A stretch of DNA of 60,000 bases from Bugula neritina (lineage: Eukaryota > Bryozoa > Gymnolaemata > Cheilostomatida > Bugulidae), in the NCBI GenBank assembly GCA_964035545.1, contig OZ037768.1, positions 2,781,501 through 2,841,500 of the forward strand, given 5' to 3'. A model generated the notes under the pieces. The model worked only from the letters and a program-made list of their open reading frames with translations. It made no database searches and was not told the origin of the DNA. Both the position numbers and the translations under genes were made by a program. Every line of letters begins with the position of its first letter. Position 1 is the first letter of the stretch. Shown here one piece after another: positions 7,734 through 59,649 of this stretch.

Positions 7734-10281
7734 TCAATTAGTAGAATTTTTAGAACGAGCTGTGCCAAGAACACAACTCAAGTTTAACTTCAGAAGAGTT
7801 GCTGTTAGAGACAACTCTTTCAGCTTCATGATACACCGTGTACGTGTGTGTGTGTGTGTGTGCGTGTGTGAGTGTATGCATGAGTGTGTGTTGAATGTTG
7901 TTAGATACAGACAGACAAATACAAACCTGAGGCGGGTCAGCAAAAGCCAGCCAATCAGATGCATGTGTCGGCAGCAAACCCATGGAGTTGCATTTATATA
8001 CAGCTAAGGCGACAGCAACTAGATTTCCACTAATATATGCTAATTTTTGAAGAGGTGCTTGTTCTCCCTGAATCATCTTGAACGCTATATAACAGAAACA
8101 TGCACTGAGGATATAATAGATGTAGTAAGATAGTATACAGCAAGGTACGACAACTCTTAAAAAGATATATAACAGGAAAACCAAGAGGTCATTGTAAGTA
8201 ATGCAAGTATCTCTCTAGACACCAACATCATTAAATAGATCAAACAAAAAATATAACATAACAGCTGAAAAAACATGGGGACACCTTTTTTACTGATTTT
8301 CATTGTTAATAGCAAAAAATTCTAGCATTTAAAAAGTCTAGCCATCAAACATAACCAGCAGGGTGAATCCCTCTAATAGAAACCACTGTAAGAAACAGAA
8401 TTGACCTACTTTGAGATAGAGAGAGAAAAGCCTGTATGGGTCGTACTGCCATCATACCGACCATCATGATGGGGAACATAGAGATGGAGTTACCCGCCAT
8501 CCACATCATGAATAGGTTCATCGGTACCTGCTTGATGGGCCCCAGGGCTACATCCCATGATCTCTGTAATGTTTACCACACAAACTCATATGTACAATGA
8601 TCTCTATAATGTTTATTAGACAAACTCCAAGATACAATGTGGGCTGGCAAAATAAACACGTGTTTCACCAACAAATACCAGAGCTGGAGTTCATATAAAT
8701 GTAGAATGATCGTGTGTATATATTTAAGTACCCCAATCAGTATTTCAACATCCAGCTTTAGGAACCCAGATTAATATTGGGTTTCTTCATTTGTTTTGTT
8801 TTAAAAAACTAAATTAAAGCAAGATTTACCTCCCACACAAACACTGTGTAATTGTAAAAGTCTATGAATCTTAGTCATACTTTGAATGAGCTGAGCTATT
8901 AGATGGGGTATAGTAGAAAGCATAGTATTAGTAAATGACATTAGAAAGTGACTATTGAATGCTCAAGAATATACTGATAGTACACATTTGATAAATATTG
9001 AGAACCTAAACTAATAAATATTTATCCAACAAATTCTAGAAAATCTAGTTTGTAGTCCTTTTTGCCAAAATCCATACTTGTTGTATTTTATCTTACCAAA
9101 ACTACACACAAAATGCGAAATTTATATATCAATGCAATGTATTATCCGGCGATCACTGATTGCTATTGACGGAATATAACTTGAAATTTCTAGGTTATGG
9201 CCCATAGAAAGCACATTAAAAACACGAGTTTAAAAACTCAGAGCACAGATTTTTATATAATACGCAGACAAACCAGCCAACCTTCACAACTAGATCTTTG
9301 TCCACATTTTGGTTACGTTCAGAAACCTCCATTCCGCCATATTTGACATAACTGTGTGGAGCAGGTAACTCTTGAAACTTCACTACTGATGACCTACAAA
9401 CATGCTACTATTATAATAATACTACAATAATTTACACTTATCAATTATAGTTAATGTTATACCCATCACATCTATAAAAATTTGAGATTAGGACCTATTT
9501 GAAATAATGATTTTAATTGTACTGATATTTTTTTTCCCAAATTTTTTTATGTCTACTTATTATAGCCAGTATTTACACTGAATTTTGCAACATATTTTCA
9601 TGTCTGTGATATGTAATAAATCAATCATTATTGTCATTTAGCAGACCTAATTCATTAGTAGTAAACCACTATCAGCATCAGTAAACAGTATTGAAAATAA
9701 GTATCTCCAAATCTAACACCCAGTCCAACAGTAACAGGGTAACAGCAATGCAACAACTAACAGGCAACAGCTAAAAGTAAATATCAGTAACTCTAATTTT
9801 AAGTCTATGAGTTAAAACTACGAGTTACATTTAGACTTAAGTCTAGAGCTACTGCTCGGGCCAGGAGCCTAAAACTAAAAGTACAACTACAGGCAAACTG
9901 AAAAAATAATTTATATTTAGTCTTACAGCTATTGAAAATAAAACTAAAAGTAAACTTTAGAGTTTAAACTTAGTCAGAGTGACTACTGATAGGGATTAGT
10001 CTCAAGTCTTACTCTTAGTCTTCGACTTACTCTTAGAGTTACTGTTAGTGTAAGTCTAAAAGTAAAAGTAAAACTAAAAATTAAAATGCAAGTACTGAAA
10101 AACAATTTGGTCAAAGTAAAATACACTATGGGATGATACTATGGCTATACTTTATAGTGAGTACAACAGCCTTGAACACAAAAATAAAACAACTGCTTAT
10201 ATTAGTATACCCTGAACTGCTGGACATATCCAAGTACCATCTTTTGTGCTGTTTTCTCTCCCTTCGTTCACTTGACGCCAT
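7734..10281 (-). CDS. EMC4: ER membrane protein complex subunit 4
   Basis: Five exons read on the minus strand: 10211-10281 (ATG), 9282-9393, 8410-8563, 7927-8084, 7734-7823 (TGA), about 194 aa against 183 in human. EMC4 belongs to the EMC, an insertase for tail-anchored and multipass proteins in the ER membrane. Exons 3 and 4 are very close to human EMC4: [33 protein letters not shown], then ALAVYKC and [15 protein letters not shown]. The N-terminus ([16 protein letters not shown]) matches the basic family N-terminus. Two hydrophobic segments fall in exons 3 and 4. The last exon is the least certain. It is in phase, but its 29 residues do not resemble the vertebrate C-terminus and its acceptor sits beside a GT/CA microsatellite. 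Confidence 0.92.
7839..7893. repeat. GT/CA microsatellite
   Basis: An imperfect (GT)n run with a few interruptions lies inside the last EMC4 intron, just upstream (on the minus strand) of the predicted final acceptor. Confidence 0.9.
9780..10090. repeat. Degenerate hexamer array in EMC4 intron 1
   Basis: Loose repeats of the types AAGTCTA, AAAGTAAAACT and CTTAGTC recur with a period near 6. The left half is rich in AGTAAAACTA-like units and the right half in their complements, so the segment has partial inverted symmetry. It lies in the 5'-most intron of EMC4. Confidence 0.6.
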
Positions 10282-14699: not shown

Positions 14700-17600
14700 T
14701 TATGTGAGTTTCTTGACTTTGCCATAGAGAGAGTCTACGACTTTGCCCATGCTGTGAATAGTTTCTATGGCTGATTCGTAGGTCTTGTCTTTTGATGTCT
14801 CGTCAAATATGATGAGAACTCCATCTCCCTGGTCCAGTATGCCGTGAAATTTCTTGTCCAAAATCATCTGAGATAATTTCTTTTCCACCAGCTCCTGATG
14901 ACACAATATAACAATAAACAAAATTAACGCAATAAACTAAGCAATGTGCCAACAGACCAGAAAAATTCAGTTTAGCACCTTTCTGGTAATCTTTACTTCT
15001 GAAATATGTTCCAACATTAAATTTCACATTAACACAGGAATATTTTTTCTAGTTTGAAGGCTTTGTGAACTCTTTGTGACCCATGGGTACACAATGTGTA
15101 TATTCTGTGAGTTATGGTAAATCATTAACTAAATCATTCATTGCAGCTACAATTGTTTGTCTTGAACTTCCATACCAAATGCTAAACTTTTGAGAGGGTA
15201 AAACTTAACTGCAAACAGACACAACTTTTGATTGATGATGGCCAAAATGAATTGCACAACATTGACTATGGAGATAAGAATTCCTTTACATGCATAGAGA
15301 TATACACTCACCTTGTCAAGGTCAATGAGTTTAGCAACGTGCGGAACCTGCACGCGAGAGTACGGCTCTATGATTCTGAGCAGATTTCCTTCGAGTAGCT
15401 TGTCGTACAGAGACTCCAAGTGCGCCTTGATTATATGGTCATTCTCTAACTCTGCTTTGTGAATCTGCAATGCCTAGAAAGTAGGTCAACCATAAATTAC
15501 ATCACTGGTATCAAGGATTGTGGTGTAATTAGATCAAAAGTTACAGCCAGTCTAGGTAGAAGCTATTCAACAGTATTCATGCATTAAAGAAAGACATGTA
15601 CCTTCTTAAAGTCGGCTAGTGATCTTTCTTTACTAGCCTTAGCAACACTTTTCATAGCCTCAGCATCTTTGCCCATATACTTGAGGGCCAACTTGCCACT
15701 CATGATTTGTGTTACTTCATCGGCTCTAAAAACACATTTCTTATTTTAAAACTATACTAAAATGACAAAAGTTGCAACAAATAATTGGTTTTTTATTTAT
15801 TAACCCACTAATAATTTAGGAGCTGAAATACACTTTATTTAGAAAAATCGTTCAGGGTAGTATCACTCCGAAACTTAGTGAAAAATTTTTCGACAAAGTT
15901 ACACTGCTTAGAAATATGTGGCAAAATGACTAATCAAGCCGGCCTTGAATATAATATCCCATACATAGTTAAATTAGGATGAGTAAACAAGATAAAAATA
16001 ACTAATAAGTTGCACCAAAACTTTTGATCTTCAAAAATATTTCTGAATAATCAGTTTCAACCATTCATTTATTTTTTAATAATCCATTGAAGTTTCAACC
16101 GAAATAGAAAAATCGAAAAAAAAGAAACTACAAAGTATTTTAATATCAGCTACAATTGCATAGTAAGCACTCACTGTTCCAGCATAATCTTGGCAAGCAA
16201 CATGTACTTCAAGCTAACAATGGCCTTGGGACTGTCAATAGAATCATAGCCTTCAAACGCTTCATAAAAATATGAGAATGCCGTCTTAAAGTCCCTGTCA
16301 GCGGCAGCATGCAGTATTCCTACAACATATCAGCAATGGGAATTGTCATCTCTTGGCACATCAAAATCTGAAATTATATTGTTAGAAAAAAGAGTTAGTG
16401 ATAGTATCATAAGCATTCTCAGAAACAATTTCAATGCTAATATTATAACGTGGCAACATTAACGAATACTGCACAGTTTTAAGGGTGCAGAGTTTACATA
16501 ATCAGATAAGTAGTATAATATAGAGCGTGGAATACAATGGAGGGATCAGCTTATAGCACCCACCAGATTGCAAGTCGAGGGATGCTTGTAGTTTAGGTGG
16601 ACAATATATACCATTAGCAGTGGTCCTGGCAGAGGTGAGGGCAGCTCTACAGGTAAAACACAACACATGCGAAAAGGAAACATACAAACATAATACTAAT
16701 ATAATAATATAATAAAAAAAGACAAACATTTGACCGACTTGAAAGGGAGGAAAGGTTAAACTCACAATCTGTACAACAGTAAATAGTTAATAGCACATTA
16801 TAAAAAAGTTGAACAATTCTATCAACTTTGATAAACATATTTTCAAAGCATCAAACCCACATTGAAGGCAGTATTTCCTATCAATTACTTCCCAAAATAT
16901 CAATAAAAATATATGCCAAAATTTACCTAAATCTGCTTTTTTAACTACTCACATGTATCAGGCTATGACACTGAATACGCGAGCTCTGTATCTTCACTTG
17001 TTCAGTAATTCAATTAAAATTTAACCAATAAATCACCCCACCATTAGAAACAAATATATAAACTAACTTGGCTTTAGGTAGGTTACCGAGAGAGTGGTAG
17101 ACTTTGCTCTCTATCAACTGCACCTCAACTAGCAGAGCTTTGTCATCCAATTTCTTCAGTTCATACAACAAACTGGAGCCGAGCTTCAGTGCCTGCTGAT
17201 ACTGACCTGGAGAGTGAAGATAGGACAAAGTGAATAAATCTGATAGGAAAATAAATCATGCTACAAACCCAAGAGTTTCAAGCTAGCCTACCATCCTCAA
17301 TGAAGTTTTCTTAAATTTTTATTTTTTGTGGTATTGACAAAAAATATTTTCAAGTTCAAGTGGCAACGGTATGACTAAAAATATTTATTGCATTATAGAA
17401 TTACAGTCAATATGAAGTAGGAGTGATTTGCTGCGAAAGTGAACAAGAATATATCCGTACATGGGAAGTCAATATGATTGTCAAACCTAAATCGTAGTAC
17501 AAAGCTATCAGCCTGCATTCCAAAGCCTGTCTCAAGAATGTTCTCTTTTCTTCTTTAGCCCATTCAATGCATTCTTTACACAACTCTACCTACACAAATA

Positions 17601-19100
17601 GTAATACATCAAATCCACCACTTGATAATATTAGTTGCATTACTTTTTTCTGGAACTTATTACTGTTAAAGTTCTGTTTTAAATAGCAAATGCTTTAATG
17701 GTGTAAGTCATATAAAGCAAACAAAATAAATATAAAATAAGCGACCTGCATAGGCAAACCTAAACAAAGACAAACGACTTCTTTGTGCCTGATATTTCAC
17801 ATATAATGATATATGGTCTCAGAAAACATACAAAACCTAAATAAAAAAGAGAAAAATTCTATACTTTGAAACACTGATGAAATAGACCAAGTACAGTACC
17901 TCTGACCCCGTAGCTGCCTCCATATCTAGGAAGAGGTCAACCAATGCCTTGACTAGCTTAGCTGCCTTTGCTTTGCTGATCATACTCAGGAACGAACGTG
18001 AGAATTTGATGAGCTCAGCAAGGGAAGTAGCTTTGTCATGTTTAGAATAGAGTTGGCCAAGGTCCATTATGGCTTGTTCCTTACACCTAGTTCCTGCTTC
18101 ATCATTTTCATAATCTTTTTTCACTAAACAAATAGGAAATACGTTATATCGAAATGTAAATAAAAGTGCTCAAGTAATTCTGAATGCATAAAAATTGTAA
18201 ATCTAAAATTTATAAATAAAAACATTTGGAGGTGGTACTCTGATAGTTCCATCTTAATTAGTATACATCAAGCACAGTTAAAATATTACACAAGGTATCA
18301 CATCAGGAGTGATGCAACATATAACATGTTAATCTCTTTTATTTAAATTAAATTTATTGAGCAAACAATATAATAGCTCAACAGCAACACAATTGTACTT
18401 TATTAGTTTATAATCTAGCCACACATAGAAATATTTTAAATATATGATTTTATTTACATTATTTTTCAATGCTTACTAAAACTAACTTATTCAAACTCTT
18501 ACTATGCATACAAAATAGTATAGTAATACAAGTAACATAGGTATAAATTAGATTAATAGTAAACTTACGCTTGGCAAAGCCAAAAGTCAAAACAGATTGT
18601 GACAGTCACACTTTGACTTTGACTTACAATTTAATTAGTATCATAAACATAATCATAGTTATAGTAAGCCTGACAGTATTAGCCATAGTGATAGTGATAG
18701 TAAAAAAAGTTTAAAATAAATAAACTAAATTACTTCAACTTGTAGTTCAAGTTGTACTACTACTAGTTGAACTTTATATTGATGATTATTTGATCATGAT
18801 GGCGACTATGAGTAAAATTAAATGTAATCAACAAAAACTAGCTATCATATTGATTCTTAAAACTACCATATTGGCAACACTTTAAATTGTTAATGTAATT
18901 TTTGATCACTGTTCAGGTCTTCTGACTTTTAAATCTTGAGAAATTGGAAGTTCAATTACATTTATTTACTTTTAGTTTTACTGAGCTAGTATGAAATTTT
19001 AAGTTTTACCTAGGGTTTCTAGCATCACTATTGCTTGTTCAGGATTTAGAAGAGACGCTGAAGAGGCTTTTTCAAGTACTTCGTTAGGATCAGGTTCCAT
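14700..19100 (-). CDS. PSMD11: 26S proteasome non-ATPase regulatory subunit 11 (Rpn6)
   Basis: Nine exons: 19010-19100 (ATG), 17900-18123, 17487-17589, 17068-17206, 16564-16646, 16175-16319, 15602-15725, 15312-15473, 14700-14894 (TAA). They join in phase to 421 aa; human PSMD11 is 422. The protein is a proteasome lid scaffold that bridges the 20S core and the base. Diagnostic stretches include [95 protein letters not shown] and [21 protein letters not shown]-like helical repeats fill the N-terminal two thirds. The C-terminal PCI domain ends in the invariant helix [13 protein letters not shown]. Tail-to-tail with NGDN, with 202 bp between stop codons. Confidence 0.97.
18600..18790. repeat. Degenerate hexamer/foldback segment in PSMD11 intron 1
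   Basis: CATAATCATAGTTATAGTAA and CATAGTGATAGTGATAGTAA-type runs sit next to mutually complementary AACTTGTAGTTCAAGTT stretches near 18735-18770. It resembles the arrays at 10690-11360 and 19640-20600. Confidence 0.55.
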
Positions 19101-21799: not shown

Positions 21800-24700
21800 A
21801 TGAATAAAGGAACTATTTTTGATATCCACGAAGCATTTAAGGTAATCCAAACATTCATAATAGCTCTATGTGATAGGTTTTGTGCTGCATTGTGGTGTTG
21901 AATTGTGTTTTGTTTTTATGAAGCTATCAATTTTGCTTGTTTCCTTTAAAGATATATAGATGTTCTTTGTAAAATATAATAAATTATTGATTTCTGTAAA
22001 ATGAAACACTTGCCTAAAAATTTATAAAATGTGATTTTTTGTTACATTTGTGTATTGAACTTGAGAATATAATGCATTCATTTTGTTAGAGACCAGTTTC
22101 ACCCGAGATGATTTCTTGGCGTGTGTGCAGTGTCATTGGCCATCATCATAATTATTTTCCACTCTTATCACTGATAGCACAAATACTGTATAGGGGTGAA
22201 GGGATTGTAGTTACTGATGTATAATAATTGTGGGGTTGTAGTTAACTGCATGTGGCGTGTCATCAGCCCAGTCGACGTGGCCCAGAGTCAGCGTGTCAAA
22301 TACTGGACTCACTTGTGTTATTCACAATGATGAGAAAAGCGAATCTGTGGAATCAATGCACTCCAGTAGTAGCAGCAGGCAAGATTCCAAGGCCACCAGG
22401 GTTAGTCTGCGTGTTGACTTGTAAAATAATTATTATTATGTCTATCAGCTTGACCTCCTGAACTCTACTATGTAGTTTCTTTCTTTCATTCACATTCTTG
22501 TTATCCAACACTCTTCACTGTCTTTTTTAAATAAACCTTTTCATCAACTTTGAAGTTCTTTAATAGATGGTGAAGATAGAGTGATTGAGGTGAAATACTG
22601 ATGGTATCTATATACATAACATTTATACACTATATAAATAACACATGTTATGTAATGTATACCTGCACATGTTATGTAATGTATACCTGCAGGTTACAAT
22701 CATCACTGATGAAGGGAAAATCATATCCAGAAGTAAAACTGTAGCTGAGTCAGCCAAGGTTCATCCCACTAAGCCCATTATAGCTTTGAAAGGTATTTGT
22801 TGCCAGTAGCCCTCTAGTACTGCTCTTATAGGAGGGGGGGGGGTACACACACCAGCCCCTCTAGTACTACTCTTATACAGTAGGTACAAAGGTATTATGC
22901 TGGCAGCCTAATTAGCTGTATAAAAATATTACTTTGATAGGAGGTAAGCTTTACTGATCTTGATAACCTGCAGTGTGCGCACACCGAGCCTACTGGTGGA
23001 ATATTAAGATTATTTTTTCTATGTGCAGGTTTAAATGTGATGTAGTTATACACCCTAACATTCAGCATAGAGAATAGTTATTTTACAAACATGTGTCTGA
23101 GGCACGTAGCTAGAATCAACACTTGCTGGTCACACTACTACTCCGTATGAGTCAGGAGCTTGAATACTGAAATGTGTTGCTGACACACACGCGCTGCCAA
23201 CAGTTGGGCAGCGTTATAGCAGTGACATTATTGTGGTGTGCTGTCGGCTTACCAGTTAACTGGTCATTCTCCCTTCGCTGTTTGTGCGCTTGTTTCACAC
23301 TCCAAAAAATCTTTTATGATAGCATATATTCTAGCAGACATTTCAGTAGCTTCCAATAACAAATTTCAACTTCAAAACAATTTTTTTTTCAGCGCATAGC
23401 GTGTTCCAAGTTTACAACTTTGAGTCAAAGAATTTGCTGAATGAGTTGGACATGGTGCACGATGTCTTATTCTGGAAGTGGACGAACGAAGACACTATTA
23501 TACTGGTTACAGAGGCCAGCATCTTCCAGTGGATGGTGTTTACAGGTTAGCTTGGCTTATATCCTCTTTCTAGAACTTTCTGGTAGCATCTGGTAGACAA
23601 CATCTGGTAGACAGCATCCACCAGGCGTGAGGTAGTCGTCTGGATGAAGTGAGGTGTTGGTGTAACTGCCGATGAACTTCAGTTGACCTTATGCAATAAT
23701 AGTATAGACTCCACTCCTACATGCCTTTCAAATTTTCCAACAACTACATGTGTCTATACTGGGTATCTGTGACTGGTTGCTACCAGGGGGAGATGCTGTG
23801 ATGACTCATAATGTGGAGTATATATCTCTGTATGAAATGATGACTACCAGTATTACGGTGGATTTTATGTCTAACAATCATATCGAATGTAACTTTTACT
23901 TAGCATTGGCTGATGCTTCTGGTACACTTCTATCCCACAATACTGCCACAGGATGCAGTGATGTTGCATTGAACTTCAGAGCTTATTTATTTGATTGATT
24001 TTCAATTATTTCTGTCAGTGTGAGACTATATGCCGCTTTCAGTTACTGAAACATGAGTGTGCTTACAGTGTTATATAAAATAGCGCATTTACCCAGGATT
24101 TAGGTTGTAGCAGTGGATCGGCAATTAATAAGGAATTTTCATCCCTTCCAACAAACGGTGCCTCACAGTATATCACACAATATAAGAAAGGGTGTATCAT
24201 ATACTAGTGTAGTATATTATATACTAGTATAGTGTATCATATACTAGTGTAGTGTATCATCAACCATCGTTGGGTTTTCTCAGAGAGAAGTGAGGCGGAG
24301 TTTATCTGTCATCGTCTTCCACGACTGAATTGCACAGAAGTTGTGAACTGTGCTATAGACGATAACCACAGGTGGTACACTGTTACAGGACTTCTTGATC
24401 ATGGAAAGGTAAATCATGATTTTCTTGCTTTTGTCTAGACTCTAGTCTAATAGCAATTCTCTGTATGGTATGATATGCAAGAACTATAACTGCACTAGCC
24501 AAAGTAATGTGCTATGATGTGGTAATATATAGTAATGTGCTGTGATGTGGTAATATATAGTAATGTGCTATGATGTGGTAATATATAGTAATTTTCACCT
24601 TCAAATGGTTGAGATTTACTTGTCCAATGCTTTCAGCTAGTTTTATTTGACACCAGACATTGCAACCAAATGTTGCCAAGAGTGATTCTATAACTTTGCC

Positions 24701-26796
24701 AAAATAACGTATATTGTAAGTCGCAAGACAATAGCTCTGTGATAGAGAGTTTCTAGAAAGTTCATAAAACTTATCAGGATGTTTATCTGCTGGCATAGCG
24801 ATGATTCACTCAATAGAACAGATCATTTCCTTGTCTTAGTAACAGTTGACAATAATTTAGTGACAATAAAAGTATGCTATTGTTCTGATTTCAAATATTT
24901 GTTATATTCATTTACTAAGCACTATCACACAACTCAGAGGGCATTGATACTTTGAAGTGTGTACCTGTGCAAACTTTAAGCACATGTTAGTGTTTTTATG
25001 CATAAGATTATATCTTTTCATGTTCGCATATGCAAATACATGCTGTAGGTTTTTTTTGCTTGGAGCAAACAGTGCCCACCTGTAAACTATACCCCCAGTA
25101 CTACAGCAAGGTTAAAGGTGAATCTCACGACTTAAAACCAGAAGATAGTAATTATTTAGCTGACTTTCTTGTTCTGGAACATATACTTCTACCAGTCTAG
25201 TTTATTTGTGTTTAGGACTCAGTGATAGAGGGCGTCACTCAGGTCTATTCTGCAGAGTATGGCGTGGCTCAGTGCATAGAGGCTCATGCAGTTACCTTTG
25301 TCACCCATCGGTTTGCTGACTCCATACATGAGTCTGTCATCTTATGCGCTGCCTCCAGGCAGCTTCATTCTCCTCACCTCACTGGCAAGGTAAGTAAGCT
25401 AGTACAATAGTTCGGGTCTCAGTGAACCCGCCCCCCTCTTGTATTTAGTAGTAATGCTTATATTGCGATGACTGCTAAGTTGAGGCTTCAACCAAAATTC
25501 TTCCAGATAAGGTTGCGCCTACTCATCTATTTTAAGAGTTTCCTTCTCAATGTTTGCAACTTTGTTGTAAGTTAGCTTGTTCAAACAGTGGTTCAGCTAA
25601 TCAGCTAGTCAAAGAAGTTTCATGTTGGGATATAGAATGATTTTATGGGACTTTTTATTGCCCTGTTGGCAAAATGTCCATAAACTTAGATTACTAAACA
25701 ATTTTACACCTTTGACTAATACATTTCTTTACATAAAAATATTTTATGCTAGAATACATGTTTTCAACATGTATGCCATGACATATGAAGTTTTTATATC
25801 AGTTGTTAGAATATGACATAGTATGCTTGCCAGATATTTAAATGGTGGCAGATATGATCTATTGCTGTTCTTGGTTGATGTTACACGGCAGTAATTTTTA
25901 TTCAAGTTTGAGATGTTTTTTCTAATTTCGATTTCATCTTACCAACTAGTTTTCGAGGCAACTCCATAAATGCAATATTTCTCTAACTCAATACTGCTTT
26001 TAATCGACAGGTGCACTGTATTGAGTTTGCCTCGGCCGCCTACTCCCAAACTATCCCTCGACTAGCGTCTTCCGATTTGAAGTTTTCTCCCCAACAAGAT
26101 GGTAGCCAAAGCGTTGACAGCGACAGTAGCCAAAAGGTGTCTTCTAACCATGGAATAGATTTCCCAGTGTGCATTCAGGTAGTCTGTGTGACATGTTTTA
26201 ACCTAAAGTTTTTATTGGTAGTCAAAGAGCCAGGTTTCCACCTTGTAGAAAAACTGTTTGTGTTACAGGCAGATACAAGTCACTGCGTGCTGTATATCAT
26301 CACCAAGTTCGGTACTCTGTACATAGCTGAGCTGGAGTCTGCAGTCGTTCTATCTCAAACTCGGATCTGCTTTGATATTACTTTCTGTAGCAGTCTCAAT
26401 TCTCTGTCTACCCTAACAGTAGTCAATAAAGCCGGTCAGGTGTGTATGTTCACCATGCTTATGCCTTATAGTGGTGCAGCGCTTGTAATGGTGCAATGCT
26501 TGTAGTGATGCAATGCTTGTAATGGTGCAGTGTTAGTAGTGCACGTGACTTCTGAAAATTGTTGAGGTTGCGACTGTTAGAAATGTTGATGGCACTCATA
26601 GACTGTATGTCCGAGTAGATTACTGGATGGAAGGTTGATAAAGCATTGCGGCTCTCTGATACAGGTGCTGAACATTTCTATAGACTGGCTGTATTTAATC
26701 AAATACGTGACCACAGTGCTGAACAGACCTGATCTTGCCCAGAGATTACAGAACAGCAGGGGAATGGAGAATGTCAACTTGTTACTAGATGGATAA
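21800..26796 (+). CDS. Clathrin heavy chain N-terminal beta-propeller-only paralogue
   Basis: Nine exons: 21800-21841 (ATG), 22242-22400, 22693-22792, 23393-23545, 24284-24408, 25216-25389, 26011-26178, 26269-26439, 26665-26796 (TAA), joining in phase to 407 aa. The whole length aligns with residues 1 to about 370 of clathrin heavy chain, the seven-bladed terminal domain plus the first linker helices. Matching landmarks are [54 protein letters not shown] and LNRPDLAQRL. Exon 4 is about 43% identical to the local clathrin by eye. Ser-rich insertions occur near residues 50-60 and 245-260. The leg, trimerisation region and QLMLT tail are absent. Intact frame and splice sites, and a nearby poly(A) signal, argue against a pseudogene. 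Function is unknown; binding clathrin-box adaptors without forming lattices is a guess. Confidence 0.85.
22643..22692 (+). repeat. 24 bp tandem duplication ending at a splice acceptor
   Basis: Two exact copies of a 24 bp unit (ACATGTTATG...ACCTGC, 22643-22666 and 22667-22690) sit at the 3' end of intron 2 of the propeller gene. The second is followed by AG, forming the acceptor of exon 3. The first is followed by AC and is not a splice site. Confidence 0.85.
24503..24592 (+). repeat. 28 bp minisatellite, three copies
   Basis: The unit AGTAATGTGCTATGATGTGG plus AATATAT-type tail is repeated three times inside intron 5 of the propeller gene, about 95 bp after the exon 5 donor. Confidence 0.85.
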
Positions 26797-27561
26797 TCCA
26801 TTAACTTTTAAATTATATTTTTTTATATTTTTGCTGCTCTTGTAGAATAAAGTAAAGACATTGTACATAGCGTTAATATTGTCAATATTTTTGTAAAAAT
26901 TATGAATTGATGTTTTTTTCACAATTTATATTTATTATAATATTTTTATGTAATCATGTATAATATTGACAATAAATATACCAGCCTAGAATTTCAAATA
27001 ATTATAACTATGTAGATTCGGTACTGTTCAGACATAGAATAGACCAGAATACAGTGATAATGGTAAAACATTTACTAGAAACTAGCTGAATTCCTGTTTA
27101 ATGCATAATTATGTAAAAGTCTGCATTGGTTCTAAAAACAAAACAACCAAAGATAGCATTTATTCAACACCATGGGATAACATTGTTGGGTGTTAAATAT
27201 AGAGGATAAGTACAACAATTGTTGGTTGGCTAATTCAATAAATGTAACCAAATGTGGACAAATTCTATGCTAACAATACTGTGTAGCAAAATAACTTACA
27301 ACTACATTGTCCTTATGCTGTAATTATTGCAACCCATTAGACACTCTACTTGGAGCTTATAACAATATAAACGTGATAATATAACGGAAAAATATGAATA
27401 ATTAGTTTATGTAATAAACATTTGACACAATAATATGCTTTGGGAGGAAGGATGTTTAACGTCAGTGGCTGAAGCCCCCAAACCTACTGCTCAATTGGAA
27501 TAGATATCAGTCTAATAGTGGAATCTAGTCAAGTCTAGTATAATCGTGGTGGTGACTGTCT
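26797..27561. other. Convergent intergenic region between the propeller gene and clathrin
   Basis: AT-rich 3' UTRs of both genes. A minus-strand AATAAA candidate for clathrin is at 27159-27164. No residual clathrin leg exons are visible in either orientation here. Confidence 0.6.
26846..26851 (+). terminator. Polyadenylation signal AATAAA of the propeller gene
   Basis: It lies 50 bp after the TAA at 26794-26796. It supports a genuine transcript end right after the linker helices instead of a missed continuation into a clathrin leg. Confidence 0.65.
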
Positions 27562-41648
<14,087 letters not shown>

Positions 41649-45197: not shown

Positions 45198-48100
45198 ATG
45201 GAGGTGGCAGCTAACCTTCAGGTTGGTTGTCGAGTTCAAGCCACCACCAAAGAAGATGTTAAAATCGGACGAGTTGCATTTATTGGTATAACCAGCTTTG
45301 CACCAGGTAAGTATTGAGTATTAATATGAATGGTGGCATGGGGTAAATTTTAATGTTGGCCTATATTATGTATCTTTTAATTTTAATGTGCTATTTATTT
45401 TTTGAATAATCTTCATTTTTTTTAAGATATTGTACATCATGCAGTAAAATAACACAATTAATTTCACTTACAAATCTACTTGTGAGAAGTGAATTTAACA
45501 AGTCATCACAATTCTATTTCATAGTAAAATACCACACAGAGTAAATGATGTTGCATATGCAATAACTATGTATTTTGTGACTGTCATGCAAAGCTGTTGT
45601 GTAGTCCCTAACCGTCCCTAATAGTGATTGAGACTTTCTGCGTGACAAAACCTGATTATATTTCAGGTAAATGGGTGGGAGTGGTTCTTGATGATGATAG
45701 TGGAAAGAATAATGGAGAAGTTCAAGGAAAAAAGTACTTCTCATGTCCAGATAACCACGGCATATTTGTTCGTCCCAATCAGGTGGGCATTTGCAGAATA
45801 ATAGACTATTTTATGAAGTTTATGCACTTTTAATACACCGCAGACTGTATTAAAATCAAACACACATGATATCAGTAGTTTCAGGTTAGTCGTTTGGAAT
45901 CAATGTATAAAGTATAAATTTACTATTTAGGATGTTAAACTAGTAGTTTTATTGAATGTGTAGGTGACAGTTCTTGAAGAACTGGAAACATCAGCTGCTA
46001 ATGTTGAGGGTGGTGAGCCAGCCGCCCTCAAACCTAGACCTAGTGGCCTAAGGAAACCGTCTGGCCTCACTACTCCTTCCTCCAGCATCAGACCTCCCGG
46101 TTCTGGTCTCAGGATGCCCAGTGCTACTGGTGGAAAGGTTTGTATAGCTTGAACTCCTATTTCAGATTTTCTCATTAGCTGCCTTAAAACCTGTTTTCAA
46201 ATGTTGGATGATCAGTTTTCATGACACAGTAAAGGGTTAGTTTCAGAGCGTAATGTTGAACATTTAGGGGAGTGGTTCTAACCTGACTGCGGCAGCCGGC
46301 AGTAAGGGCAGCTCCTCTAACCTCTCCTCCTCGGGCAGTAAAGGCAGCAGTCCAAACCTAGCTGCTGCCGGGGAGTCCAGACAGAAACCTCGTCAGAGTA
46401 TTGGAGGCCCTTCAAAGCTGAAGTGTAAGTTGCTATACAGTATATACAACAGTGTGAGTGGTACAGAGGCTACACAGTGTGAGTGGTACAGAGGCTATAC
46501 AGTGTGAGTGGTACATAGGCTATACATTGTGAGTGGTACAGAGGCTACACAGTGTGTGTGGTACAGAGGCTACACAACAGTGTGAGTGGTACAGAGGCTA
46601 TACAGTGTGAGTGGTACAGAGGCTACACAGCGTGAGTGGTACAGAGGCTACACAACAGTGTGAGTGGTACAGAGGCTATACAGTGTGAGTGGTACAGAGG
46701 CTACACAGTGTGAGTGTTACAGAGGCTACACAGTGTGAGTGGTACAGAGGCTATACAGTGTGTGTGGTACAGAGGCTACACAGTGTGTGTGGTACAGAGG
46801 CTACACAACAGTGTGAGTGGTACAGAGGCTATACAGTGTGAGTGGTACATAGGCTACACAGTGTATACAACAGTGCCTGTAACGTAGTAAGAGTGAGTAA
46901 GAGGTTGAGACGTGGTATTCTTTACTTGCAGTGTCTACATCAGCTGACAAGAGAGTGGATAGTCCCTCACTTCAGTCTGTAGTGAATGAGCCTGTGGTTG
47001 AGTTGTCAACCCCACCCATCCTACCTTCCCTACCAGCTGTAGGTCTACTGGTTACGCATCTCTATTTAGTATCTCAATATTAGCAACTTACATGTTGTTG
47101 CTCCAAAAATCATTGAACTTCACTGAATTCCTTAATATTTTGCTATTCAAGCTGCCGAGTTATGTGTATCATTCAGAGTCCTAGAGTAGGTCTTTGTCAT
47201 TACTAAGTGTTATGAAATGGTTTACAAACAGGCAATTGGCAACCCGGATGATTTGGAGAAGATCAGAGGACTGGAGGTGCAGGTCGTTGACCTTACTGAG
47301 AAGCTGGAGACTATCAAAGCCAAACGACTTGAGGATAGAAATAAACTAAAAGATGCTGAAAAGATAAAGATTATGTATGATCAGGTACATTGTCTTGGAA
47401 AGGGAAGGGGTATCAGCAGTCCTAAACCTCTCTTTTGCTGTTTTATTTGTTGTCTATTGTCTTTTGATATGGAATTTAGTCTCGGCAATAAATTGCCGGT
47501 TTTTTTGGATCTAATTTTCGATAGACCTGCAGCTCCTCAAGTTTGTATATAAATCCTCTTGAATCTGCACCAATTGCAAGATATGTGTTTCAGCTGAAAG
47601 AGTACAAGAGTAAGGCACAGGAGATACACAAAGACTTACAGCAACAGTTGCTGGCTGCTAAGAAAGAGTCTAAAGACATACAAGAGCAGTATGATAGCTA
47701 CAAAGATGAGATGAGCGAGATGCAGGAAACTATAGAGTTGTCTACCCTTGACAAGGAAATGGCTGAGGAGAGGGTGAGTGTCTTTACATTAGGCAGTATA
47801 TAGCCACGTATGTTATACCTCATCATTATCCTGGTCACTAGATTCTCTTACTGCCAAAACTATTTGCAACTTTAATCTAAAAATGCTCACAACGCCAATT
47901 GTTTTGTTTATATTTACTTTTAAAATTTATTAAAAAATTTTTCTAAAAATATCTTACTAAATCTAATAGTTTTATTCTATAAAACTCAATCTGGTTTCTT
48001 GTTTGATATTTTTCATATTCAGTAAATAGTAATGTTGGCCTCTTCTATATAACTGCTGCCGCTGCTCTTTTTCACGTTGTTGAATGTCCGAGATTTGTTT

Positions 48101-57173: not shown

Positions 57174-59649
57174 TTAATTACCAAAATGATAAGGATTGGC
57201 CCTTCTCTCAACTCTACAATGGTTTCTGTTCTTCATTTTGAGCGAGCAGTTCCCGCCAGACCCGTAACGCCCTTCATGCCGGTGTTGGCCACCAAACGAG
57301 TTTGTTTGCTGCCTACCAGATGGGTTCATATTGTGCTGCCAGTTTTGGTGACCAGGCGGTATCATATGCTGCCAGTTTGAGTTGTTAAAAGGGTTTATTT
57401 GCCAGTTTTGGCTGTCAAATGGGTTTATATTGTGCTGCCAGTTTTGGTTGTCAAATGTGTTCATATTATGCTGCCAGTTTCGGCTATCAAAAGGGTTCCT
57501 ATTATGCCAGTTTTGCCCATTAAATGGGTTCATATCATGCCAGTTTTGCCCATTAAATGGGTTCATATTATGCCAGTTTCGCCCATTAAATGGGTTCATA
57601 TTATGCCAGTTTTGCCCATTAAATGGGTTCATATTATGCCAGTTTTGCCCATTAAATGGGTTTATGTTATGCCAGTTTTGCCCATTAAATGAGTTCATAT
57701 TATGCTGCCAATTTTGGTTGCCGGAATTGTTTGCAGGATTGTTCCTCTGTGAAGAAGACAACCTACAAAGTACAAAAACAGCACATGTGTAATTTACAAA
57801 CCAACCAATAATCTTCTCATAATAAATGATTCATGAAGCATAGAACTTAAAGGTAACAGGCTAATTATACAATTGTATTCATGTAATAATAGTGTCTAGT
57901 CCCCCTTTTTAGTACTGCCTAGCTAACAGAATAACTTATGGTACACAGTCTACATGCAGATGTCAACTTCTGTTTTGTCTAATTAGCAATCAGTCTTTGA
58001 GTTCACATAAAACCAGAAGTTCCATCTAAAATATTTTACACACCAATTGATGCTCTGATGGTCAACTTCTGCCTCTACCCACACGGCGTACTCCGGCTTT
58101 GCCACAATGTCGGTGACACCCCAGCAGCGGGACAGGTGGTGCATCAACATGAACGTCATGTTACGGTGTGCGCTGCTGTTCCAGTGGGCGCCGTCAGCCT
58201 TTCGGGCTATTTGGAATGCCCTACAGATTTATTACAAAACACAGGTTTCATGTTTCACAGTTTCACCCCACCATACTCATCTTGTGTTCACTGTTCTAGC
58301 ATGTTCTATATCATTCCGTTGAGATAATAAGCTCGAATCATTCAACTTATATTCTCAATTCCTATTCTTTTTACAAAATTGTCATACTTTTAACTATATA
58401 CTCATATGTAGAAAATTTGTGAATAATTAAAAATAAAAATGAGTTATAATATAGTTGGTAGTAATCTCTTATAAAACACAGCTGCAAGTTTCAGGCAAAT
58501 TGAAGCCATAAAGTTTAAATTTCTCCATTACCAGTTTATGCTGACTTATAAAATTCTTGTGAGACCAGCTTCATAGAGTTAGAGCTGAGACAATATGTAT
58601 GTAAGTAAATAGAAAGTATACCTATCTCCACTTACCTGAAGAAATAATGGAAATCTATAACATCAATATCATGCTTTGTCGCCAGTGCTGATGAAAAATA
58701 ATTAGCTTCGAGTACGTCTCGACGGAGTGAGTTGTTACCATTTCGCTCAGCTCCGTCCATGACTCCGCCTTTGATACTGTCACCTATCGGCATGCAGCAC
58801 CCCCACAGCACAACGCTGTGTTGCGGCAGCACCTCGTGGAGTCTACATTTTATTATAGGAAACTGTTATCTTATTCAGCTGTTACTAGTTGCCTCTTAGT
58901 AAATATACTGATGCTGATTTCTAGATAAATATATAACGGCTAGTAACAATCATTGCATGCTTTTCGAATAAAAAGTAAAATAAATTACTATTATATATTA
59001 ATATATTATTACACTTTATATTAGTAGACATACACACTGACCTGGTAAAGAGTATTTCTAAGTTTGCTTTGTATTGACATAAAGTATTCTCCCCTGACTT
59101 TACCTCATCCTTCCACCTGCAGCCAAGTGAGAGAGTATGCATGTACAGATATTGAATAGATTTAGTGCTGCAGTGCCACATGGGCAGTGAAATGTTGCAC
59201 AATACATACCAACATTCAGCATATGGCAGGAGGGAAAATAACAAAACTGTAAGTAACATATACTTGTTAACAATATTTGCAGGTGAAAAAATAGACATGA
59301 ATAATTGGGGAGACAACTCATTATGAAGAAATAAATAAATCAAATTTTAATGTACAAACTTCCAAACCTATAGAGCCACATACAAAAACACCATTTATAA
59401 AATACTATTTTATCAAAGCAGTAACTGGATCACACAGTTTAGCGAAATAGTAAGAATATCGGTTATATACAAGTCAGCACCTGTTCAAGTCCCAGCAGCA
59501 TGAGCTAAGGTACACTACATCTGGGACAGGCTGTGACAGGAAGTCCATCAGAATGGTTTCAGAGTAGTCGTAATACGCTCGGGTTATGAAATAGAAACGA
59601 ATGCAATAAACTTCAGTTCGGTATTCACGGACTTCAATATACGAGCTGC
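57174..59649 (-). CDS. PC-esterase domain-containing protein 1-like (5' end outside window)
   Basis: Five exons on the minus strand: 59481-59649, 59042-59116, 58636-58842, 58044-58220, 57174-57762 (TAA), joining in phase. About 400 residues are present. They match the middle and C-terminal part of PCED1A/B (FAM113), SGNH-like PC-esterases of unknown substrate: RFYFITRAYYDY, PDVVYLSSCCWDL, a MPIGDSIKGG loop, SLRRDVLEANYFSSALA, then DGAHWNSSAHRNMTFMLMHH, which carries the Asp-x-x-His catalytic pair. The N-terminal GDS block with the catalytic Ser should lie beyond 60000 or in an exon I did not find. The last exon adds a long Asn-rich tail of 11-residue repeats, where vertebrate PCED1 has a Pro-rich tail. 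The end (RRANPYHFGN) recalls the Arg-rich PYH motif in vertebrates. Confidence 0.87.
57350..57720 (-). repeat. Coding minisatellite: 11-residue Asn-rich repeats in the PCED1-like tail
   Basis: About ten units of NGQNWHNMNPF (33 bp), nearly identical in the N-terminal half and drifting to NWQHNINPFDSQ-like 10-12 residue units toward the C-terminus. The near identity at DNA level of the first six units shows recent expansion. Confidence 0.92.

Follow-up and report, generated by a model that had tools for sequence, protein, structure and literature searches.

Can the head of clathrin persist as a gene of its own? Clathrin is a coat protein, and its head, the N-terminal domain (NTD), works in a lattice alongside many copies of itself. 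The 60-kb window analysed here (OZ037768.1, positions 2,781,501 to 2,841,500) comes from the 215.85-Mb genome, in 295 contigs, of the bryozoan Bugula neritina. It holds an intact clathrin heavy-chain gene and, beside it, a short gene resembling the clathrin head alone. We conclude that this short gene is almost certainly a real NTD-only clathrin paralogue kept by selection, and we weigh what its protein may do. Positions are those of the window.

A gene for the clathrin head

The short gene occupies 21800-26796 on the + strand. Its splice model joins nine exons into a 1224-nt coding sequence of 407 codons plus TAA, with GT-AG borders at all eight introns. This bears out the initial annotation, which had described a nine-exon, 407-residue gene with a frame intact across eight introns. 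At the base composition of introns, 407 codons would all be free of stops with a probability of ~4e-13, a naive figure because the exons were picked for being open. Two smaller claims also stand: the start exon measures 14 codons in both the short and the canonical gene, and an AATAAA lies 50 bp past the stop, at 26846. The features are as follows, with P0001 denoting an orthologue introduced below.

21800..21841 (+): exon 1, with the start codon; 14 codons ending in phase 0, the length and phase of canonical exon 1
22242..22400 (+): exon 2, residues 15-67, matched by P0001 residues 13-69
22693..22792 (+): exon 3, preceded by an intron not in the canonical gene
23393..23545 (+): exon 4, clathrin-box groove region with Q89, F91Y and K96
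24284..24408 (+): exon 5, W-box Q152E and arrestin-box W164
25216..25389 (+): exon 6, arrestin-box Q192 and I194
26011..26178 (+): exon 7, containing a Ser/Asp-rich insert
26269..26439 (+): exon 8, preceded by an intron not in the canonical gene
26665..26796 (+): exon 9, last blade strand and first linker helices (helices from the P0001 model); TAA at 26794-26796
26846..26851 (+): AATAAA polyadenylation signal, 50 bases past the last base of the stop codon
27562..41648 (-): canonical clathrin heavy-chain gene, intact, 31 exons, 1681 aa, downstream of and convergent (tail to tail) with the short gene

Splice junctions of the canonical gene were selected by fit to a human guide sequence. Its introns, judged from the open-reading-frame list only, carry minisatellite-like and trinucleotide-like repeats at 30994-31290 and 32003-32300.

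The short protein stops near residue 362 of the 1681 in canonical clathrin, which limits its match to the propeller and first linker helices, as had been claimed. For comparison, the linker Pfam model starts at residue 331 in the canonical protein P0005. The trimerisation domain and light-chain binding region are not in the short protein. PF00637 leg repeats, found as seven stretches in P0005, are missing from the window protein and its orthologues P0001 and P0002, and none of these three matches PF13838 (Clathrin_H_link) at E<=0.1. The initial statement that no leg exons follow also holds: tblastn of canonical residues 363-1681 against the 60-kb window gave three chance-level matches only on the + strand (E 1.6, 5.2 and 9.9). 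Across the genome, P0005 gave at least 32 matches: 30 fall in the canonical gene, and the short gene and C9 account for one each; match counts in our genome searches are lower bounds. Except for one 39-residue linker-type match on C9, no second leg set was found in the genome.

The product has a seven-bladed N-terminal propeller homologous to the clathrin NTD. A PDB phmmer search matched it to the clathrin NTD at E 8.7e-41. Among the matches listed, the predicted model of P0001 closely keeps the clathrin NTD fold and matches clathrin NTD structures. We base homology on PDB and fold matches because the Pfam cut-off is not reached. The window protein has no Pfam model at E 0.1 or better, and PF01394 (Clathrin_propel) scores 17.7 bits for P0001 and 18.8 bits for P0002, below its 21.3-bit cut-off. 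In the whole genome, PF01394 matched three canonical exon stretches only. This conserved gene slips past Pfam cut-offs. NCBIfam returned chance matches only, and tblastn against phages returned no match.

Conservation and descent

Orthologues share both the short protein and its end point. A search of ~5.8 billion proteins, which detects only relatives with shared exact five-residue words, gave three matches at E<=0.01, and a profile search gave the same three. P0001 is a 403-aa 'clathrin heavy chain-like' protein of Watersipora subatra, P0002 is a 330-aa JGI protein without the N-terminus, and P0003 is a fragment of canonical clathrin. The initial annotation had suggested related genomes as a place to look for the short protein, and W. 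subatra supplies one. This species is a cheilostome bryozoan whose Ensembl annotation derives mainly from transcript alignments, the P0001 record itself being from NCBI (PMC12902671).

The three short proteins are 62-66.5% identical over aligned columns (window-P0001 264/397, window-P0002 211/326, P0001-P0002 199/321). All stop 3 to 9 residues past a common NV(N/D)LL stretch; the truncation is therefore inherited and no local accident. P0002 takes 990 bases of a 1665-base contig, which suggests a cDNA-derived contig because it is too short for the 3081 bases that the window gene's six introns total there. The 5614-base contig carrying P0005 (1682 aa) likewise suggests a cDNA source. Selection on the intact frame, as originally proposed, appears to be real, given orthologues with the same end point. 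In a maximum-likelihood tree of 26 sequences, 100/100 support unites the three proteins in a clade.

The short protein seems to change faster than its canonical relative. Tree paths within its clade are 0.48-0.64 substitutions per site, and the window-P0002 path of 0.56 compares with 0.064 for the canonical pair, window and P0005. Poisson distances are 0.435 for the short pair and 0.057 for the canonical pair, which is identical at 286/307 of the columns covered by P0002. If the hosts of P0002 and P0005 are comparably distant, the short protein would be changing about six to nine times faster while keeping its frame, length and end. The stem branch of the short clade measures 3.83 substitutions per site, a length at which branches are poorly estimated, and may reflect either much faster early change or great age. 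It joins the mite Oppia with weak support (79.3/66), most likely a long-branch artefact. Approximately unbiased tests rejected neither grouping with bryozoan-type clathrins (p 0.285) nor a position outside the animal clathrins as a whole (p 0.236). Twelve canonical rows agree at 218 positions; at 55 of these, all three short proteins are fixed for a different residue.

Shared introns disfavour a retrocopy and indicate a DNA-level copy of canonical exons 1-7. The short gene has counterparts of all six parent introns in this head region, each of equal phase and at the corresponding alignment position (one is off by 1 column), and its stop falls within the homologue of canonical exon 7. The paralogue would have arisen when the first seven coding exons of the heavy chain were duplicated, introns included; it now stands in inverted, tail-to-tail orientation to its parent. 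No second copy was found in the genome: P0001 gave 10 matches (10/10 candidates scored), eight to short-gene exons and two, weakly, to canonical exons. Pairwise identity does not help to date the event because the canonical clathrin of the same genome (29.9%, 109/365 aligned columns) resembles the short protein as much as eleven other canonical rows do (28.5-30.7%).

The short gene has features of its own. Two extra introns, after residues 67 and 307, have no parent equivalent. A Ser-rich insert at ~22350-22400 (3' part of exon 2) and a Ser/Asp-rich insert at ~26104-26157 (exon 7) lack counterparts in canonical clathrin, and the P0001 model is of low confidence over the stretches that hold the inserts (46-64 and 277-287). 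The exon-2 insert ends at one parent-lacking intron and the exon-7 insert lies 7 codons before the other, with gap placement good to within a few residues.

Peptide grooves and competing readings

What could a lone head still bind? In the yeast NTD, each of three boxes combines a glutamine anchor with basic residues and a hydrophobic pocket (PMC11543927), and bovine groove residues are tabulated in PMC5182127. Our groove lists draw on both sources. Yeast positions were converted to mammalian numbering by offset, apart from H229, R64, V177 and V262, for which the source itself gives the pairing.

Part of the groove inventory is intact. Kept in all three short proteins are Q89, Q192, R63, K96, W164, Y184, S185, V190, I194, H229 and I231, a set that includes the glutamine anchors of the clathrin box (Q89) and arrestin box (Q192). 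S191 is changed in two of the three. In the W-box, F260 and V262 are kept, the glutamine Q152 is E in all three, and the other positions read F27W (2/2), I154V, I170L and V177I. E11 of the Royle box is kept. On a longer clathrin-box list, four residues are kept (I80, L82, Q89 and K96), and R64, T87, F91 and K98 are among those changed; I52, I62, I80, L82 and I93 were excluded from the 21-position groove test. That test found 11/21 groove residues kept versus 68/294 other positions (P 0.0024). A first version that allowed P0002 gaps gave 7/13 versus 60/218 (P 0.036). All groove P values are single-test values, and several tests were run.

Our preferred reading is a motif-binding regulator. The paralogue's product would be the clathrin NTD alone, near the 1-363 construct of binding work. 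It is unable to be a triskelion subunit because the legs, the trimerisation domain and the remainder of the linker are missing, and it would be soluble and monomeric. Its clathrin-box and arrestin-box grooves, where binding of these types is plausible from the residues, would still catch short leucine-type adaptor motifs, with W-box specificity apparently rebuilt. The availability of adaptors and accessory proteins could thereby be tuned without lattice building. We regard this whole reading, NTD-only paralogue together with motif-binding regulatory mechanism, as evenly poised. Competing for adaptor motifs or chaperoning them, as proposed earlier, is a candidate role at most; in the motif grooves Q89, Q192 and W164 are kept, and Q152E, R64S and K98L/M are changes.

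Several results weigh against a motif-binding regulator. Groove residues R64, T87, F91 (to Y), K98, L183, R188, F216, V233 and K245 have changed, as have I52, I62 and I93 of the longer list and, in the Royle box, F9 (to I) and Q14 (to K, 2/2). Stricter controls reduce the enrichment: canonical-invariant positions only give 10/20 versus 56/178 (P 0.054), and residue-class matching gives 4/8 versus 31/103 (P 0.19) or 6/12 versus 25/75 (P 0.16). Within-clade invariance of clathrin-box and arrestin-box positions is 15/21 versus 170/294 (P 0.14), and W-box identity to canonical clathrin is 2/6 (P 0.42). The low overall identity to canonical clathrin, 29.9%, points the same way. Taken from the alignment, statistical support for groove retention looks moderate to weak. 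Moreover, an adaptor bait captures monomeric NTD much less efficiently than oligomerised NTD (PMC5182127). On that basis a monomer would compete only weakly, except at high abundance or with a changed or improved affinity. We therefore favour a motif-binding regulator whose specificity has changed over a simple decoy. A wholly new set of partners is a serious rival.

In that rival, the propeller would have left clathrin biology and bind other partners through its two Ser-rich loops and differently fixed residues. We hold it tentatively, as somewhat less than probable. The contrast between the 3.83 stem and the short paths within the clade fits fast change followed by a slow-down, or great age. 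The 55 refixed positions, the inserts in low-confidence parts of the model and the loss of groove significance under stricter controls also favour it. Yet the long branch is poorly estimated, the fold is closely kept, and Q89, W164, Q192, I194 and I231 persist in all three proteins.

A dominant-negative decoy is a special case that overlaps with the motif-binding regulator: high expression in some cells or stages would cut clathrin-mediated uptake through motif occupancy. We consider it unlikely. Partly kept motif grooves and absent coat-forming parts suit a decoy, but the basic groove residues R64, K98, R188 and K245 are lost and monomeric NTD is the less well captured form (PMC5182127).

A bolder and rather improbable extension is a conserved, head-only, non-polymerising bryozoan anti-clathrin. 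It would hold adaptor motifs and perhaps dock on adaptor complexes via its own E-N-V-(D/N)-L-L tail, setting when and where coats form. All three short proteins conserve this tail (26767-26784, + strand). We take it to fit the acidic dileucine pattern, which may be chance because canonical clathrin has E-D-L-F there.

A decaying fragment, either a pseudogene or a near-neutral relic of partial duplication, is highly improbable. The long stem branch could suit decay, and truncated maize clathrin genes without detected cDNA have been called likely pseudogenes (PMC9263852). We rejected it on the intact frame and GT-AG introns and on the identity and common end point of the three orthologues. Less credible still is that the exons head a longer transcript running into a leg elsewhere, its truncation only apparent: we found no supporting point and rejected it on the in-frame stop, the AATAAA 50 bases on and the absence of + strand leg exons in the window, and the genome has no second leg set bar the 39-residue C9 match while the orthologues share the same end.

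Neighbouring features and known systems

Other features of the window lie on both sides of the clathrin pair.

8345-8572 (-): EMC4 exon, from Pfam
15147-15473 and 17837-18169 (-): PCI and RPN6_N exons, from Pfam; proteasome subunit RPN6, presumably PSMD11
45612-45833 (+): CAP-Gly exon, from Pfam; we assume it may belong to dynactin 1
57174-57830 (-): 218-residue frame of repeats rich in Asn, Gln and Trp, with units such as NGQNWHNMNPF; Pfam gave no match at E<=0.001, and the product may be a repetitive protein with a structural role or one that is secreted

The short gene differs from each clathrin relative with which we compared it. Among the matches listed in the open-licence PMC literature, none describes a protein of the clathrin head alone, which upholds the initial view that it has no described counterpart. 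CHC22 (CLTCL1) is also a duplicated clathrin heavy chain. It is a full-length coat protein, whereas the short protein lacks the coat-forming parts.

CLHC1, like the short protein, is an animal protein built from only part of clathrin. We take a gene on C9 (- strand) to be probably CLHC1, clathrin heavy chain linker domain-containing 1. The likely homologous stretch lies at G000:C9:1183548-1183664, and the gene with the Clathrin_H_link match (PF13838, E 1.5e-11) at 4519-4878 of L008 (G000:C9:1179000-1188900). Frames upstream of it look coiled-coil by eye. This CLHC1-like frame carries the linker domain and no propeller part, the reverse of the short proteins, which have no PF13838 match.

The nearest described case is in maize, where ZmCHC3a, ZmCHC3b, ZmCHC4a and ZmCHC5b are predicted truncated clathrins; the authors report that no cDNAs were found and call the genes likely pseudogenes (PMC9263852).

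The clathrin NTD itself (structures 1utc and 5m5r) shares with the short protein a seven-bladed propeller, the first linker helices, recognisable box positions and Q89/Q192. The short protein differs in being encoded by a separate gene, in lacking the remaining linker, the leg and the hub, and in its 29.9% identity, Q152E and two Ser-rich inserts. A conserved animal gene of this form would show that adaptor reading can be detached from coat building. It would also offer a natural experiment on which peptide grooves count once avidity is gone, and a natural candidate regulator of endocytosis.
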